Shown in pieces: positions 11,939 through 20,945 of a stretch of 64,000 bases of DNA; position 1 is the first letter of the stretch, and each line of letters begins with the position of its first letter. This DNA comes from Paracholeplasma brassicae (lineage in GTDB: Bacteria > Bacillota_I > Bacilli_A > Acholeplasmatales > UBA5453). Under the pieces are notes generated by a model. That model made no database searches, was not told the DNA's origin, and was given only the letters and a program-made list of their open reading frames with translations. The DNA is taken from assembly GCF_000967915.1 (NCBI RefSeq), contig NC_022549.1, forward strand, positions 1,042,366 to 1,106,365. Direction: 5' to 3'. The translations under genes and the position numbers were made by a program.

Positions 11939-12691
11939 TTAAAATGAGGTTAGGACATTCGATAAAAATTGTTTGGTTTTCTCATTTTTTGGTTCATTGA
12001 ATATGACACTTGGATGACCTTCTTCAATGATCTTTCCACCTTTATCCATCACAACAATTTTATCTGCAAAATGTCTTGCAAATCCCATTTCGTGTGTCAC
12101 GATAATCATCGTGATCCCCGTTTGGATTAAATCTTTCATAAGCAATAAAACCTCTTTGATCATTTCTGGGTCTAGTGCGCTGGTTGGTTCATCAAATAAA
12201 ATGGCGGTAGGATCCATTAATAACGCTCTTAGGATTGCCACACGTTGTTGTTGCCCGCCTGAAAGCTGGTTTGGATAATTGTTGATTTTTTCTGCTAAAC
12301 CGACTTTTTCTAAAAGCGTCATGGCTTTAGAGATTGCCTCACTTTTGTCTCTTTTTAGGACGTCAACTTGTGCAAGTGTCAAGTTCTCTAAAATCGTTAG
12401 ATGTGGAAATAAATTAAAGTTTTGAAAGACCATCCCGACGTGCTTACGATGTTCATAAACATCATAATTTGGATTTAAGATATTCTTACCTTCGAATTCT
12501 ATGGTACCCTCAGTTGGGTATTCCATGAGATTTAGTGTTCGTAAAAGTGTTGACTTACCACTACCAGAAGGTCCAATAATGATTGTAACTTCGTGTTGAT
12601 TAATTGTTAAGGATACGTCATCAAGTGCTTTAGTTCCATCCTCAAAGACTTTTGATAATTTTTCTATTTTAAACAAGCTATTATTTGCCAT
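11939..12691 (-). CDS. Polar amino-acid ABC transporter ATPase, probably arginine
   Basis: 250 aa from the ATG at 12691, chosen because AAGAGG lies just upstream; an upstream GTG/ATG extension would run deeper into the permease gene. Walker A GPSGSGKSTLL, signature LSGGQQQRVA, Walker B AILFDEP and switch His in VTHEMGF are all present. The length and GlnQ/ArtM-type sequence fit the polar amino-acid uptake family. It overlaps the permease end by 11 bases, so translation is coupled. Substrate is inferred from the T-box leader and the divergent arginine deiminase gene. Confidence 0.92.
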   Translation of the reverse strand: MANNSLFKIEKLSKVFEDGTKALDDVSLTINQHEVTIIIGPSGSGKSTLLRTLNLMEYPTEGTIEFEGKNILNPNYDVYEHRKHVGMVFQNFNLFPHLTILENLTLAQVDVLKRDKSEAISKAMTLLEKVGLAEKINNYPNQLSGGQQQRVAILRALLMDPTAILFDEPTSALDPEMIKEVLLLMKDLIQTGITMIIVTHEMGFARHFADKIVVMDKGGKIIEEGHPSVIFNEPKNEKTKQFLSNVLTSF

Positions 12692-13352
12692 AAGATAACC
12701 TCTTTTCAAAATACCCCATTAACTTAGAGGTTGGAAACGTTAGCATAAAGTAGAGTATCGCAACCACAATATAAGTTTCTTTAACGGCATAAGTCGAGGT
12801 ACGTACAATCGTTGCCGCATACATGAGTTCTGCAATACCTAGATACATGAAAATCGATGTTTCTTTGATCATCGTCACAAACTCATTACCGAGTGCCGGT
12901 ATGATGTGTTTAATCGCTTGTGGTAGAATAATCTTTCTCATGGTTTGTTTTTGATTCATTCCAAGTGACAATGCCGCTTCTTTTTGTCCTTTTGGTACGG
13001 ATAATATGCCCCCACGAATGATTTCTGAGACGTAAGCACTTGAGTTAATTAATAACGCCAACATCCCTGGAATAAAACTCGATAAATCAATGCCTAAAAA
13101 GACAACAACCGGTAGACGAACCATACTATAAATGAGTAACACCTGAACCAATAGTGGTGTCCCGCGGATTAATTCAACGTAACTTTTCGCAATCACGTGC
13201 AGGACTTTATGCCTACTTAATCTCATAAATGCCGGAATGAAACCAAGCATTGAGCCAAAGACAACCGATAATAGCGCCAGCAACAACGTCATGCCTAAGC
13301 CGCTAAATAATATCCCTAGGTAATAAGGGTCTAAGACAAATGAGAAATCCAT
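12681..13352 (-). CDS. Polar amino-acid ABC transporter permease
   Basis: 223 aa with about five membrane segments and the HisM/GlnP family EAA loop (EAALSLGMNQKQTMRKIILP). It is placed one base after the substrate-binding protein gene and overlaps the ATPase gene. A single permease gene implies a homodimer. It forms the membrane channel of the transporter whose binding protein and ATPase flank it. Confidence 0.92.
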   Translation of the reverse strand: MDFSFVLDPYYLGILFSGLGMTLLLALLSVVFGSMLGFIPAFMRLSRHKVLHVIAKSYVELIRGTPLLVQVLLIYSMVRLPVVVFLGIDLSSFIPGMLALLINSSAYVSEIIRGGILSVPKGQKEAALSLGMNQKQTMRKIILPQAIKHIIPALGNEFVTMIKETSIFMYLGIAELMYAATIVRTSTYAVKETYIVVAILYFMLTFPTSKLMGYFEKRLSYGK

Positions 13353-13353
13353 T

Positions 13354-14157
13354 TTAGTTCTTATTTAGTTCGGTCATGTCAAAAATGATTTGATCCATTT
13401 TCCCAGACGAAATGAGTGATTCTAATACCTGATTAATTACAGCTAATAGTTCGGTATTTCCTTTTTGTACAGCCGCTGCAGAACCTTCTTCAGGGTTACC
13501 TATTTGTAAATCTAGAATGTGTAAACCACTGATGTTTTTTAAGTACCCTTCAGCCACAGGACGTTCAACAACAACCGCATTTAGCTGTTTATTTGATAAT
13601 CTTAAGACCAAATCAGGCACCGATTGAATGAATTGTGTTTGAGCTTTATTAAAGTGTTCTTCGACAAGCGTTTGTTGAACAGACCCAATTTGAGCACCAA
13701 TTCTAAGACTTGCTACATTCAAGCTTTCCAAACTTGCGAAGGAATCTTTTTCTGATTCATTCACTAAAATGACTTGGTTGGCTTCGTAATAGATAATTGA
13801 AAAGTCCACTTGTTTTTTTCTTTCTTCACTTGGATTCATCCCAGCTAAAACAAAGTCAACTTTACCATTTTCTAAATCGTCTAACAAGAATTCAAAGCCC
13901 TTATTGACCACTTTTAAGTTCTTACCCAACGCTTTGGCAACTTCCTTGGCAATCTCAATATCAATACCAACTAGGGTTTGTTTGCCACTGACTTTCATTG
14001 GCCACTCGTATGGTGGATAGTCAGCCGATGTGCCTAAGGTGATGTACTCCGTATAAGATTCATCTATTGTATAGGTAAATATGTTGTTTTGTCCCTGACA
14101 AGACGCTAAAAACAAACCCGCTGTTACTGCTAATATTAAACTTACTAATTTTTTCAT
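13354..14157 (-). CDS. Amino-acid-binding lipoprotein of ABC transporter, probably arginine
   Basis: 267 aa. Lipoprotein signal with lipobox LASC (Cys20), so it is tethered to the outer face of the membrane. The body matches solute-binding family 3: TSADYPPYEW, GIDIEIAKEVAKALGK, DFVLAGMNPSEERKK. It is the first gene of the transporter operon and lies directly behind the T-box leader. A leader that senses uncharged tRNA for arginine (likely CGU specifier) and a divergent arcA support arginine uptake. Other basic or polar amino acids remain possible. Confidence 0.9.
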   Translation of the reverse strand: MKKLVSLILAVTAGLFLASCQGQNNIFTYTIDESYTEYITLGTSADYPPYEWPMKVSGKQTLVGIDIEIAKEVAKALGKNLKVVNKGFEFLLDDLENGKVDFVLAGMNPSEERKKQVDFSIIYYEANQVILVNESEKDSFASLESLNVASLRIGAQIGSVQQTLVEEHFNKAQTQFIQSVPDLVLRLSNKQLNAVVVERPVAEGYLKNISGLHILDLQIGNPEEGSAAAVQKGNTELLAVINQVLESLISSGKMDQIIFDMTELNKN

Positions 14158-14184
14158 TTTCTTCTTCTCCTTATATTTTTATAT

Positions 14185-14300
14185 AAAAAAACGCTCTTGG
14201 CAAAAAACTTGCCAAGGACGATTATTACCGCGGTACCACCTTGATTCTAGTCTAAAAAAGACTAGCACTTACCTAGTTAACGCCTAGCTACGTTTAAACC
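14185..14300 (-). promoter_or_regulatory. Second T-box module without Stem I
   Basis: Copy of the downstream half of the T-box: the GGTTTAAACG...GGCGTTAAC stem II/pseudoknot strands, a CTAGTC/GACTAG stem III, the T-box TGGTACCGCGG (14238-14228) and a terminator CTTGGCAA/TTGCCAAG with a T run (14220-14185). Only a remnant with ACGTG lies where Stem I should be. It would add a second termination checkpoint to the same leader RNA. Confidence 0.85.
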
Positions 14301-14333
14301 TAAAATTGAGTGACACGTAAAGGGGCCAAAAAA

Positions 14334-14560
14334 TAAAAAAATCCTAGCATAATAGCTAAGGACGAAATTTTCCGTGGTACCACCTTAGTTCTAGTGTAAA
14401 CACTAGCACTTAAATCGTTAACGCCGATTAATACGTTTAAACCTCAATCATTCGATTTAAAAGCTCCCAAGCACGTTCATATGTATCCCACACTGATTTA
14501 CACCAACCATCAGCTCTCTTAAGAAGTCCTACAAATTACTACTCTTGTTCTTCGCTTACT
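14334..14560 (-). promoter_or_regulatory. T-box riboswitch leader (probable arginine specifier)
   Basis: Full T-box: Stem I with GAGTAGTAA on the 5' side and AGAGAGCTGATGGTTGGTG at the distal AG-bulge/loop, a specifier-loop 3' strand GAACGTG, stem II, stem III (CTAGTG/CACTAG), the T-box TGGTACCACGG (14382-14372) and a terminator (14362-14334). T-boxes read through when the cognate tRNA is uncharged. Reading the specifier as the triplet after GAA gives CGT (Arg). This fits the amino-acid transporter it controls and the divergent arginine deiminase, but the specifier choice is by eye. Confidence 0.88.
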
Positions 14561-14563
14561 TCA

Positions 14564-14591
14564 ATTATAAATATTTAGCGTCATTAATCAA
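14564..14591 (-). promoter_or_regulatory. Promoter of T-box/amino-acid transporter operon
   Basis: -35 TTGATT (14591-14586), 16-base spacer, -10 TATAAT (14569-14564), placing the RNA start just before Stem I. Confidence 0.78.
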
Positions 14592-14676
14592 GTTTTATTC
14601 ATTTGAAAACGATTTCTTACTTTTAATAAAACCAATCAATATCCCGAGTAACGCCTTATTTAAAGCTAGGGTATGA

Positions 14677-14682
14677 TATAAT
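14677..14682 (+). promoter_or_regulatory. Extended -10 promoter of arcA
   Basis: TGATATAAT (TGn extended -10) 26 bases before the arcA start, -35 weak. Divergent from the T-box promoter about 90 bases away. Confidence 0.7.
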
Positions 14683-14707
14683 AGAAAAAGAATAAGGAGG
14701 CAAAAAA

Positions 14708-15928
14708 ATGATTAGTTTAAACGTAACTTCTGAAGTCGGACAATTAAAAAAAGTCCTTCTGCATAGGCCAGGTCTCGAATTAGAACATTTGACCCCTAAA
14801 TGGCTAAACCAACTGCTGTTTGATGACATTCCGTGGCTGAAACGTGCCCAAGAGGAACACGACGAATTCAAAAAAATTCTAGAAGACCATCAAGTTGAGG
14901 TCTTCTATCTAGAGGATTTAGTTTCTGAATCGTTATCAAACAAACAGGTAAAAAACCAATTTATTGAACAGTTTATTGATGAAGCTGGCGTCATCAATAA
15001 ACAAACGAAGAAAAAACTTCGTGCGTATTTAAGTACACTTAATACCAAAGAAATGGTCAAAGAAACCATGTCAGGTATCCCAAAAACAAAACTTGAAGGG
15101 GTTCGATTGGTCTCACTCAAAGAACGCATTGAGGATTACCCGTTCATTACAGATCCAATGCCTAATTTGTATTTCACAAGAGATCCATTTTCGATCATCT
15201 TTGACGGCGTCAGTATTAATAAAATGCACCGAAATGTCAGAGAACGGGAAACAATCTATGGGGATTACATTTTTACGTACCACCCTTCATTTAAAGACAA
15301 GAAACGCTTTTATGAACGTACGGAAAAACCATCGATTGAAGGTGGTGACATTTTAGTTTTAAGCAAGAAGGTCGTCGCCATCGGTATTTCTGAGCGAACC
15401 AACCCGGATGCCATTGAACTCATTGCTAAATCGCTTTTTGAATCGAGTGAGCTTGAATACGTGGTGGCAATTGACATGCCAAAAAAACGTGCATTCATGC
15501 ACCTTGATACCATTTTAACGCAGGTTAATACGTATCAATTCTTAGTACACCATGACTTTTTAAAAAAGTTAAATATCTATTTGATTAGACGTGGTTCAAA
15601 AAAAGACCATTTAGTCATCGAACACAAGGAAGAAACATTAAAACGTGTGTTCTCACGCTTGTTAAAAAATGCCATTACCATGATTCCATGTGGGGCAAAC
15701 GACGCGATTGCATCCGACAGAGAACAATGGAACGATGGCGCCAATACATTAGCGATTTCTCCTGGCGTTGTCATTGTTTATGAAAGAAATACGATCACAA
15801 ACAAATTATTAGAACAAGAAGGCATTAAAGTAATCCCAATGGCTTCTAGTGAGTTATCAAGAGGTCGAGGTGGCCCAAGATGCATGAGCATGCCACTTGA
15901 GAGACTCGATGTGGGTGAATACGAATGA
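14708..15928 (+). CDS. arcA: Arginine deiminase
   Basis: 406 aa, usual length. Hydrolyses arginine to citrulline and ammonia, the first step of the arginine dihydrolase pathway that yields ATP by way of carbamate kinase. Guanidino-transfer family residues are visible: FTRDP near residue 158, EGGD near 215, MHLDT with the catalytic His near 262, and the nucleophilic Cys392 in GRGGPRCMSMPLER. AAGGAGG lies seven bases before the ATG. arcB and arcC are not in the window. It is coupled by an ATGA overlap to a dehydrogenase gene and divergent from a probable arginine transporter. Confidence 0.96.
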   Translation: MISLNVTSEVGQLKKVLLHRPGLELEHLTPKWLNQLLFDDIPWLKRAQEEHDEFKKILEDHQVEVFYLEDLVSESLSNKQVKNQFIEQFIDEAGVINKQTKKKLRAYLSTLNTKEMVKETMSGIPKTKLEGVRLVSLKERIEDYPFITDPMPNLYFTRDPFSIIFDGVSINKMHRNVRERETIYGDYIFTYHPSFKDKKRFYERTEKPSIEGGDILVLSKKVVAIGISERTNPDAIELIAKSLFESSELEYVVAIDMPKKRAFMHLDTILTQVNTYQFLVHHDFLKKLNIYLIRRGSKKDHLVIEHKEETLKRVFSRLLKNAITMIPCGANDAIASDREQWNDGANTLAISPGVVIVYERNTITNKLLEQEGIKVIPMASSELSRGRGGPRCMSMPLERLDVGEYE

Positions 15929-19155: not shown

Positions 19156-19809
19156 CTATAATCGCTTATCTATTTTTTTTACGACGAAATCACCGATACC
19201 TTGGATTAAAAATACCAGTGCTAACACCGTAAGTGTTGATAATAATATCATGGTTTGATCATTTTTTACAAAGCCACTTTGATAGGCTAGGTGGCCAAGC
19301 CCACCTGCCCCAATCACCCCTGAAATTGAGGTAAACCCAATTAAGGTAACTGAGGTAATTACTAAACCTGAAATCAATCCAGGTAATGATTCTTTAAGTA
19401 AAATAGGCGTCATTTGTGTGGTCGTTTTTCCTAGAGATTCTAACATCTCTATGATGGACTTCGGGATTTCTCTTAACGATTGGTAAACCAATCTAGCGTA
19501 GAAAGGGGTTGCCGAAATCACAAGCGCTGGGATTGCAGCACTTGAGCCTAAAATGGTGCCGATGATTTGTTTGGTTAATGGCATGATTAGAATCATCAGA
19601 ATCAAAAAAGGAATACTTCTTGCAATGTTTGTGAGAAAAACCAACAGTTGATGAACCACCTTTAAAATGCCTTTCTTTGACTCCGTCAAATACAACACAT
19701 AGCCTATTAAAAAGCCAAACACTAATACAAAGATTAAGGTCACAAACGTCATGTAGATGGTGTCAATCAAAGCGTCTTGAAGTAAATCAAATCTGACGTT
19801 ATCAAACAT
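19156..19809 (-). CDS. metI: Methionine ABC transporter permease
   Basis: 217 aa with five membrane segments and the family loop (SLGKTTTQMTPILLKESLPG). MetI-type ending GAGGLGHLAYQSGF is present. It overlaps the metN end by eight bases. Forms the channel with MetN and receives methionine from MetQ. Confidence 0.93.
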   Translation of the reverse strand: MFDNVRFDLLQDALIDTIYMTFVTLIFVLVFGFLIGYVLYLTESKKGILKVVHQLLVFLTNIARSIPFLILMILIMPLTKQIIGTILGSSAAIPALVISATPFYARLVYQSLREIPKSIIEMLESLGKTTTQMTPILLKESLPGLISGLVITSVTLIGFTSISGVIGAGGLGHLAYQSGFVKNDQTMILLSTLTVLALVFLIQGIGDFVVKKIDKRL

Positions 19810-20768
19810 ATAGATTCACCGACACTTTCTCTTTAAGATCAGCAATAGCTTTTAATTTATGCTTACCGCTCACTGTAATCAGTAAATAACCTACCGATTG
19901 ATGATTAATCTCACTGATTTTAGCGTACAAGATGCTGATATCGACTAGATGCTTTTTAGACACTTGAGAAATCAATGGGTAGTTTATCTCATTTAGAAAA
20001 TAGACTTCATAGACATCTTCTGTCACTTTATCTAAAAAGCGATCATCAAAATGATTTAAAAATCGTTTTGACACACTCGATTGATGATTTAATGCCAAGT
20101 CGATGGTCTTTCCTGATTCAATAACGTGTTTGTCTTCAATGACACAAACATCACTACAGATGTATTTTACCGCATCAATGTCATGAGAGACAAATAGAAT
20201 CGTTAAATTCATTTGCTGGTTGATTTGTTTTAATAAGTCCAAAATTTGATAAGCCGTTTCTTGATCCAAACTTGAAGTGATTTCATCACAAAGCAAATAA
20301 TCAGGTTCATTCATGAGTGCTCTAGCGATGGCCACTCGTTGCATTTGCCCACCAGAAAGTGTTTTAGGGTATCTGTTTTCAAACCCTTCTAATCCAACAA
20401 CCTTTAACAAATTAATCGCCTTTTTTTGTTTTTTCGATTTTAGATAAGTCTTTGCCTTGGTATCCAATTAGCACATTATTTAATACATCTTGTTGATAAA
20501 GCAGGTTAAACTGTTGGAAAATCATCGAAACACGCTTTCTCATTTTTCTAAGTTCAAGCGTTGTTAATGTGGTTAAATCTTGATTATCAATCAATATTTG
20601 TCCACTATCGGGCTTAACAAGCCCGTTAAGCATTCGAATAAGACTCGACTTCCCAGCCCCACTTCTACCTAAAATGCCATAAATAGTACCCGTGTCTACC
20701 GATAGATTCAGATTCTCAAGTATCTTGATATCATCGTATTTTTTTGACACATTTAATAGTTGAATCAT
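19802..20768 (-). CDS. metN: Methionine ABC transporter ATPase, frame broken at A7
   Basis: Two overlapping frames together make one MetN. The first (from 20768) holds Walker A GRSGAGKSSLIRML and the Q-loop IFQQFNLL and stops after EKTKKGD. The second holds LSGGQMQRVAIARA, DEITSSLD, the switch HD and the C-terminal NIL regulatory domain, ending at 19802. Removing one A from the A7 run at 20421-20427 joins them as EKTKKAINLLKVVGLEG into 321 aa, near the usual MetN length. All motifs are intact, so decay is not otherwise visible. Sequence error or slippage rescue is more likely than a real null. First gene of the operon, behind an attenuator leader. Confidence 0.85.
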
Positions 20769-20910
20769 GTTACCCCTCCGTTTAAATAAAAAAATAAAAG
20801 CCTCGATAAAGAGACTTTAAATTCGTACAATTTATCGTTTATAGCTGTACCACCGTAGCTAACTGCTGGTTGGTAGACGTTCACAGAGCTATATCTCTCC
20901 CGTCTTCTTA
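20769..20910 (-). promoter_or_regulatory. Structured attenuator leader of metNIQ, class unassigned
   Basis: Minus-strand RNA with a hairpin GACG-GG-AGAG/CTCT-GTGAA-CGTC (20904-20876), then TACCAACC pairing with GGTGGTA (20875-20848) around AGC/GCT. Next comes CGATAAA (20837-20831), able to pair with TTTATCG (20810-20804) in the loop of a terminator AAGTCTC/GAGGCTT with a T run (20817-20793). GGTGGTAC resembles a T-box (TGGTACCGCG) but reads TGGTACAGC. No canonical Stem I and no ATG specifier is seen. It lacks the SAM-I core. A methionine-linked signal is expected from the genes it controls. Confidence 0.7.
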
Positions 20911-20916
20911 ATAATT

Positions 20917-20945
20917 TTTATATTTGATTGATGCTATTGTAACAA
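20917..20945 (-). promoter_or_regulatory. Promoter of metNIQ-ogt operon
   Basis: -35 TTGTTA (20945-20940), 17-base spacer, -10 TATAAA (20922-20917). Confidence 0.7.

Follow-up and report, generated by a model that had tools for sequence, protein, structure and literature searches.

Partially tandem T-boxes were reportedly described by Vitreschak et al. in 2008. In fully tandem T-boxes, known from trp, ilv, and thrS leaders, Stem I and specifier are present separately in every unit. For these full tandems, a digital, pseudo-cooperative response for which two uncharged tRNAs are needed has been proposed (PMC12452182), and a digital, pseudo-cooperative response is also proposed in a second paper (PMC9413887). 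The mode of action of the partial tandems is listed as an open question in a 2020 review (PMC7583486). Models for tandem T-boxes and for IIA/B pseudoknots are named as future work in the TBDB paper (PMC7778990), and the words "tandem" and "Acholeplasma" are both absent from the part of a 2008 T-box survey that was available (PMC2494555). Within the T-box literature covered by our search, outside of which subscription papers fell, we found no proposal of a shared Stem I or of strand exchange.

Here, we analyzed a leader on the minus strand of a 64,000-nt stretch of Paracholeplasma brassicae DNA (the window), where it lies upstream of an amino-acid ABC transporter. The leader has the partially tandem layout, with one Stem I and a repeated antiterminator and terminator, and an earlier note on this DNA was right to call partial T-box duplication a known kind. 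We propose, with a probability of roughly 0.65, that this is a transcription-terminating arginine T-box in which two successive discriminators share a single Stem I because one 5′ arm of Stem II can pair in two alternative ways. As in partially tandem T-boxes, a full T-box is followed by a further antiterminator/terminator part; the difference is that here the only 5′ side of Stem II covaries with both the linker and arm a′, the second 3′ arm, and this would supply a mechanism for sharing Stem I. The two terminators in series are a feature in common with the fully tandem T-boxes, but here one specifier serves two discriminators. Compared with Stem II insertions in T-boxes, the insertion in this leader consists of an entire second discriminator plus an arm that offers Stem II another way to pair. 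With its covarying composite Stem II, the leader provides a testable model with named bases, in which one decoding domain would serve two sensors by the exchange of one arm. If true, the arrangement would amount to a naturally occurring logic device that works in two steps and consists solely of RNA, and it would explain the tRNA specificity of a discriminator that lacks its own Stem I.

The T-box model RF00230 matched positions 14561-14355 completely (149.2 bits, E = 2.5e-35), which puts module 1 above the gathering score of 93. Its match to positions 14350-14211 was a half module, in which the Stem I part of the model is deleted, with 58.6 bits, below the gathering score, and an E-value of 5.5e-12 that refers to a search of 1 kb. 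The description in the earlier note, of a full T-box and behind it a second module that lacks Stem I, is borne out by these matches and by 15 genomes; RF00230 had been suggested there as a check on both modules. All features of the leader lie on the minus strand. A sigma-70-like promoter, identified by consensus match only (TTGATT, 16 nt, TATAAT; 10/12 matches; 14564..14591), is located upstream of Stem I (14463..14561), which the RF00230 alignment gives as the sole one in the leader. Stem I carries the specifier CGU (Arg) at 14473..14475, in the register GAA-CGU-GC. This register was adopted because the next one would vary from Val to Glu to Ala across relatives; in the adopted register the specifier is CGA in L090 and CGC in L035, and it reads Arg in every case. 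The specifier fits its setting, with an amino-acid transporter downstream and the gene for arginine deiminase as divergent neighbor of the leader. The transporter genes, also on the minus strand, encode a substrate-binding protein (SBP_bac_3; 13354..14157), for which the best NCBIfam match is of the Lys/Arg/Orn type and below the cut-off, a permease (12681..13352), and an ATPase (11939..12709).

Behind Stem I, the only Stem II 5′ arm of the leader, arm a (UUUUAAAUC, 14454..14462), was located by composite-pairing analysis. It is followed by strand b of copy 1 (GAUUGAG, 14443..14449) and by arm c (GGUUUAAAC, 14435..14443), the copy-1 Stem II 3′ arm, which would pair with a in a first state. The RF00230 alignment places the Stem IIA/B pseudoknot and Stem III of module 1 at 14391..14437 and antiterminator 1, with the T-box bulge UGGUACC and the core GGUGGUACC at 14384-14376, at 14355..14388. 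Terminator 1 with its T-run spans 14336..14360 (stem 14360-14343, −9.0 kcal/mol). The linker contains segment b′ (CUCAAUU, 14304..14310), complementary to b, both strands having been assigned by pairing, covariation, and a partner scan. Next is arm a′ (GGUUUAAAC, 14292..14300), the second Stem II 3′ arm, which is complementary to a. Module 2 then comprises a Stem IIA/B pseudoknot and Stem III (14247..14293, from covariation), antiterminator 2 (14212..14244, from the RF00230 alignment and covariation), again with the bulge UGGUACC and with its core at 14240-14232, and terminator 2 with its T-run (14184..14216; stem 14216-14196, −13.9 kcal/mol). Both terminators were identified in a terminator scan, which found two where 0.4 were expected from shuffles.

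Local alignment of the two copies, counted by eye, showed 74 identities in 91 aligned positions with two gaps, and the repeat limits given in the earlier note, 14443-14372 and 14300-14228, are correct. In 11 genomes that were measured, terminator 1 and the second Stem II arm are 24-46 nt apart, which is too short for a Stem I, and module 2 therefore has none of its own. The proposed specifier remnant ACGTG is present in 1/15 linkers, that of the window's own genome, and a conserved specifier relic was rejected. We also rejected a separate promoter for module 2, since a scan of the minus strand across 14150-14720 gave promoter-like sites only ahead of Stem I and within terminator 2, and none in the linker between the modules. 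In the whole genome, 14 RF00230 matches were found, this half module included, and a search by exact pattern returned this partial tandem as the only one.

Comparison of sequences across relatives (designated by L numbers) established both modules, their conservation, nested complementarity of a with a′ and of b with b′ that covaries, and covariation within module 2. The two modules are present in 15 genomes of two orders, in 15/15 before the same substrate-binding protein gene, so that the comparison with related genomes, which the earlier note had advised, shows that the arrangement is not due to chance. By DNA search, both modules together were recovered from 10 of 61 close genomes; extension to the whole order added L045 as an 11th. 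The wider search used the exact pattern GGTGGNACC ... CGTTA ... GGTGGNACC, which would miss other cores or spacings. This pattern was present in 11/160 genomes of the order, including 7/7 of the window's genus and 4/7 of a second genus. It was further present in 10/395 of the class (eight already in the order set and two new), in 7/392 of the phylum (all already known), and in 5/90 of a second order. From the latter set we discarded L091, an ileS leader whose upstream pattern match is due to chance; the tandems of the second order are L089, L090, L092, and L093. A single T-box precedes the same gene in seven relatives that were examined, namely L013 (Acholeplasma oculi), L014, L025, L026, L028, L029, and L035, and L046 has the same leader as L013. 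On a tree of the substrate-binding protein, in which 8 of 18 inner branches are unresolved, the tandem/single label needs five changes. Judged by its occurrence in 15 genomes of two orders, the tandem arrangement is old, and the tree fits one origin or several.

From genome to genome, the linker segment b′ is the complement of copy-1 strand b, with a′ directly behind b′. Along the sequence, the elements follow one another in a nested order (a, b, c, [IIA/B, III, antiterminator/terminator 1], b′, a′), and a:a′ and b:b′ would therefore constitute one composite Stem II that encloses module 1. In the window, the 5′ and 3′ strands of this helix are UUUUAAAUC-GAAU-GAUUGAG and CUCAAUU-UUA-GGUUUAAA. 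The corresponding strands are AAAUC-GAAG-GUUUGAG and CUCAAAC-UCAA-GAUUU in L016, AAAUC-GAAAG-UCUUGAG and CUCAAGA-AU-GAUUU in L020, and AAAUC-GAAAUAU-GAUGAG and CUCAUC-UAUCA-GGUUU in L021. The pairing of a with a′ and of b with b′ can be drawn in 11/11 tandems of the window's order and in 14/15 when the second order is included. In all 11 tandems of the window's order, the duplex energy of the composite (−10.7 to −17.7 kcal/mol) exceeds in strength that of the copy-1 Stem II hairpin (−3.1 to −5.1 kcal/mol). Some genomes depart from the plan: b:b′ contains a single A-C mismatch in L022 and L024, and in the GC-rich L090 and L093 the linker pairs with arm c, not with b (8 and 7 bp), with the topology unchanged. 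In L089, the one genome of 15 without a convincing b:b′, an ensemble constrained by the module stems keeps a:c (P = 0.89).

The single arginine T-boxes of the same transporter (L026, L029, and L013 from A. oculi) share gene and specifier with the tandem, and those of L026 and L029 also share its Stem II plan of an arm, a short GA-rich internal loop, and an apical helix; they have no second module, and their apical helix closes a small loop, not a whole module. The Stem II of L013 is built differently, without the GAA strand. The five single arginine T-boxes that were folded all built Stem II from the arm, a short GA-rich internal loop, and a local apical helix 2-5 bp long. In copy 1 of the tandems, this local helix is absent from 9/11 and 2 bp long in the remaining two, which would fit a strand b that is reserved for b′. 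The b:b′ pairing would supply the apical helix across module 1 and thereby give module 2 the canonical order of Stem I, Stem II, IIA/B, Stem III, and antiterminator; because of this order, we regard module 1 as lying inside the loop of the Stem II that serves module 2. The letters of the classical S-turn of Stem II were visible neither in copy 1 nor in the composite.

Several comparisons support the pairing; the permutation and shuffle controls among them leave shared ancestry in. Swapping linkers among eight representatives gave p = 1.7e-4 over all 40,320 permutations, and p = 3.0e-4 with other representatives. For 11 representatives of both orders, the observed mean was −16.0 versus −11.0, with 0 of 200,000 random permutations as good. 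A partner scan, in which the 22 nt directly preceding a′ stood for the linker and no pairing register was chosen, gave strand b as the three best of 123 leader windows (z = 5.5, 5.1, and 4.7); the best window without overlap to b reached z = 2.85. Pair counts were made on 11 distinct rows, after L023 and L024 had been collapsed into rows identical to them and L090 and L093, whose linkers pair with c, had been omitted. At b:b′ pair 11/32 these rows contain UA four times, GC three times, CG twice, and AU and GU once each, so that all 11 are paired, and pair 12/31 is UA in five, AU in four, and CG in one. A third b:b′ pair shows three types and is unpaired in 3/11 rows. Overall, 95.2% of cells are paired versus at most 55.8% in slid registers, and the covariation score was reached by 0/500 shuffles. 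The b′ register in these counts was picked by complementarity, a choice that the 11-representative permutations and the partner scan do not need. Covariation thus shows the a:a′ and b:b′ pairing. An initial duplex test (own pairs, mean −6.1, versus −3.7 across groups), in which single-genome shuffles were mostly nonsignificant (0.02 to 0.40), lacked part of strand b and was superseded by the fuller constructs.

Folding ensembles were more equivocal. In unconstrained folding, a:a′ had a probability above 0.5 in 6/15 genomes and close to zero in L019 and L089. With the module stems imposed, a:a′ was favored in 14/15, and shuffled linkers averaged 0.66 as well. For the window's leader, the unconstrained probability of a:a′ was 0.62, and it was 0.02 on a transcript two bases shorter. 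Energy was dropped as the main argument in view of the 6/15 in free folding and the high values of the constrained shuffles, and covariation was relied upon instead.

These data suggest how one Stem I could serve both modules. In a first state, arm a would pair with arm c and join Stem I to module 1, and uncharged tRNA-Arg bound to Stem I would stabilize antiterminator 1, allowing RNA polymerase to pass terminator 1. This decision would fall before b′ and a′ exist. Once transcribed, b′ would capture strand b, joined in some genomes by part of c, while a′ captures a, so that the composite Stem II forms with module 1 inside its apical loop. The Stem IIA/B, Stem III, and antiterminator 2 of the second module would then stand in canonical order behind Stem I and Stem II, and the same specifier could serve a second charge test at terminator 2, Stem I being reused with the same tRNA or, equally, with a fresh one. 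We infer a strand exchange during transcription, a reuse of Stem I, and a response to arginine starvation that would be sharper or more stringent. A more specific version, which we hold tentatively and at somewhat below even odds, is a serial checkpoint with module 1 nested in the Stem II of module 2: the decoding domain would bind tRNA once and be passed between two aminoacylation sensors by Stem II strand exchange, so that charge is tested twice per transcription event, a kind of kinetic proofreading.

Covariation speaks for pairing and not for purpose, however, and the helix of b:b′ and a:a′ could be real and yet do no more than lock or close off module 1, against re-folding, RNase attack, or backtracking, or fix the state of module 2, with no second tRNA check. 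Such a role would suit a composite that surrounds all of module 1 and, by prediction, is much more stable than the Stem II hairpin of copy 1. We nevertheless consider it rather unlikely, as module 2 keeps a selected IIA/B, Stem III, antiterminator, and T-box bulge, all of which would be superfluous in a mere lock.

Indeed, module 2 bears the marks of selection. In an alignment of 14 rows (L024, identical to L022, was omitted), 93.3% of cells in the IIA, IIB, III, A1, and A2 helices are standard pairs versus 83.2% in shuffles, none of which was as high (0/500). Both sides have changed in 11 of 23 pairs, chiefly in the IIB pseudoknot and Stem III. Both terminator hairpins are present in 12/15 tandems, the second being absent from L022, L023, and L024. 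This loss, the missing Stem I, and the five tandem/single changes on the protein tree, which suggest that the arrangement comes or goes easily, would agree with module 2 being the decaying rest of a T-box once duplicated in full, which now acts as a simple additional terminator and reduces basal expression. Such decay is very unlikely given the compensatory double changes in IIA/B, Stem III, and b:b′ and the retention in 15 genomes of two orders. By the same evidence, selection as read from the alignment maintains the antiterminator side of module 2, and the terminator is not alone in being kept.

The T-box bulge of module 2 is intact in 14/14 aligned rows, as UGGU or, in L022 and L023, as UGGC. 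The 3′ end of tRNA-Arg(ACG) is GCCA in 15/15 genomes, with which UGGU forms three pairs and one U-G, while the UGGC of module 2 in L022-L024 matches G73 of tRNA-Arg exactly. As proof of tRNA binding, the bulge match was set aside: UGGU:G73 is a U-G in both modules of most genomes and is nondecisive. The intact bulge, and its exact match in L022-L024, would be compatible with the second of two options offered in the earlier note, in which module 2 senses uncharged tRNA through the acceptor end only, without Stem I, as a second gate of low specificity. We judge this option distinctly unlikely, and less likely than a shared specifier, because the conserved composite Stem II would then be pointless and the acceptor end pairs by only 4 nt, one of the UGGU:GCCA pairs being a U-G. 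The first option, one specifier controlling two terminators in series, is the one favored, now with a sharing of Stem I that covariation supports: since the one 5′ side of Stem II covaries with linker and arm a′ alike, module 2 can join the same Stem I. This comes close to the hidden Stem I that the earlier note had named as counting against its proposal, but the Stem I of module 2 would be shared, not hidden.

Other T-boxes provide a context for the bulge. Those of serS and of asparagine (asnA-like gene) have UGGU though their tRNAs carry G73, and that of trpS has UGGC for a G73 tRNA; both observations were made in the window's own genome and in L004, L010, and L012.

The leader ends of L022-L024 keep antiterminator 2 and have lost the terminator 2 hairpin. 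Gate 2 of these genomes has possibly shifted from transcription to translation, in the manner of class II, as modeled by a predicted pairing of CGUCCUUGG with the AGGAGG Shine-Dalgarno region. The predicted pairing is weak (−5.7 kcal/mol, z = −0.72 and −0.77), and a longer stretch folds otherwise than by CGUCCUUGG:AGGAGG pairing.

Elsewhere on the minus strand of the window, a c-di-GMP-I riboswitch (1860-1933) and a SAM riboswitch (20829-20917) both scored above their gathering scores. Downstream of the SAM riboswitch, a methionine-transporter-type ATPase (19802-20768) is split into two overlapping ORFs, reflecting either a frameshift or a sequencing error.
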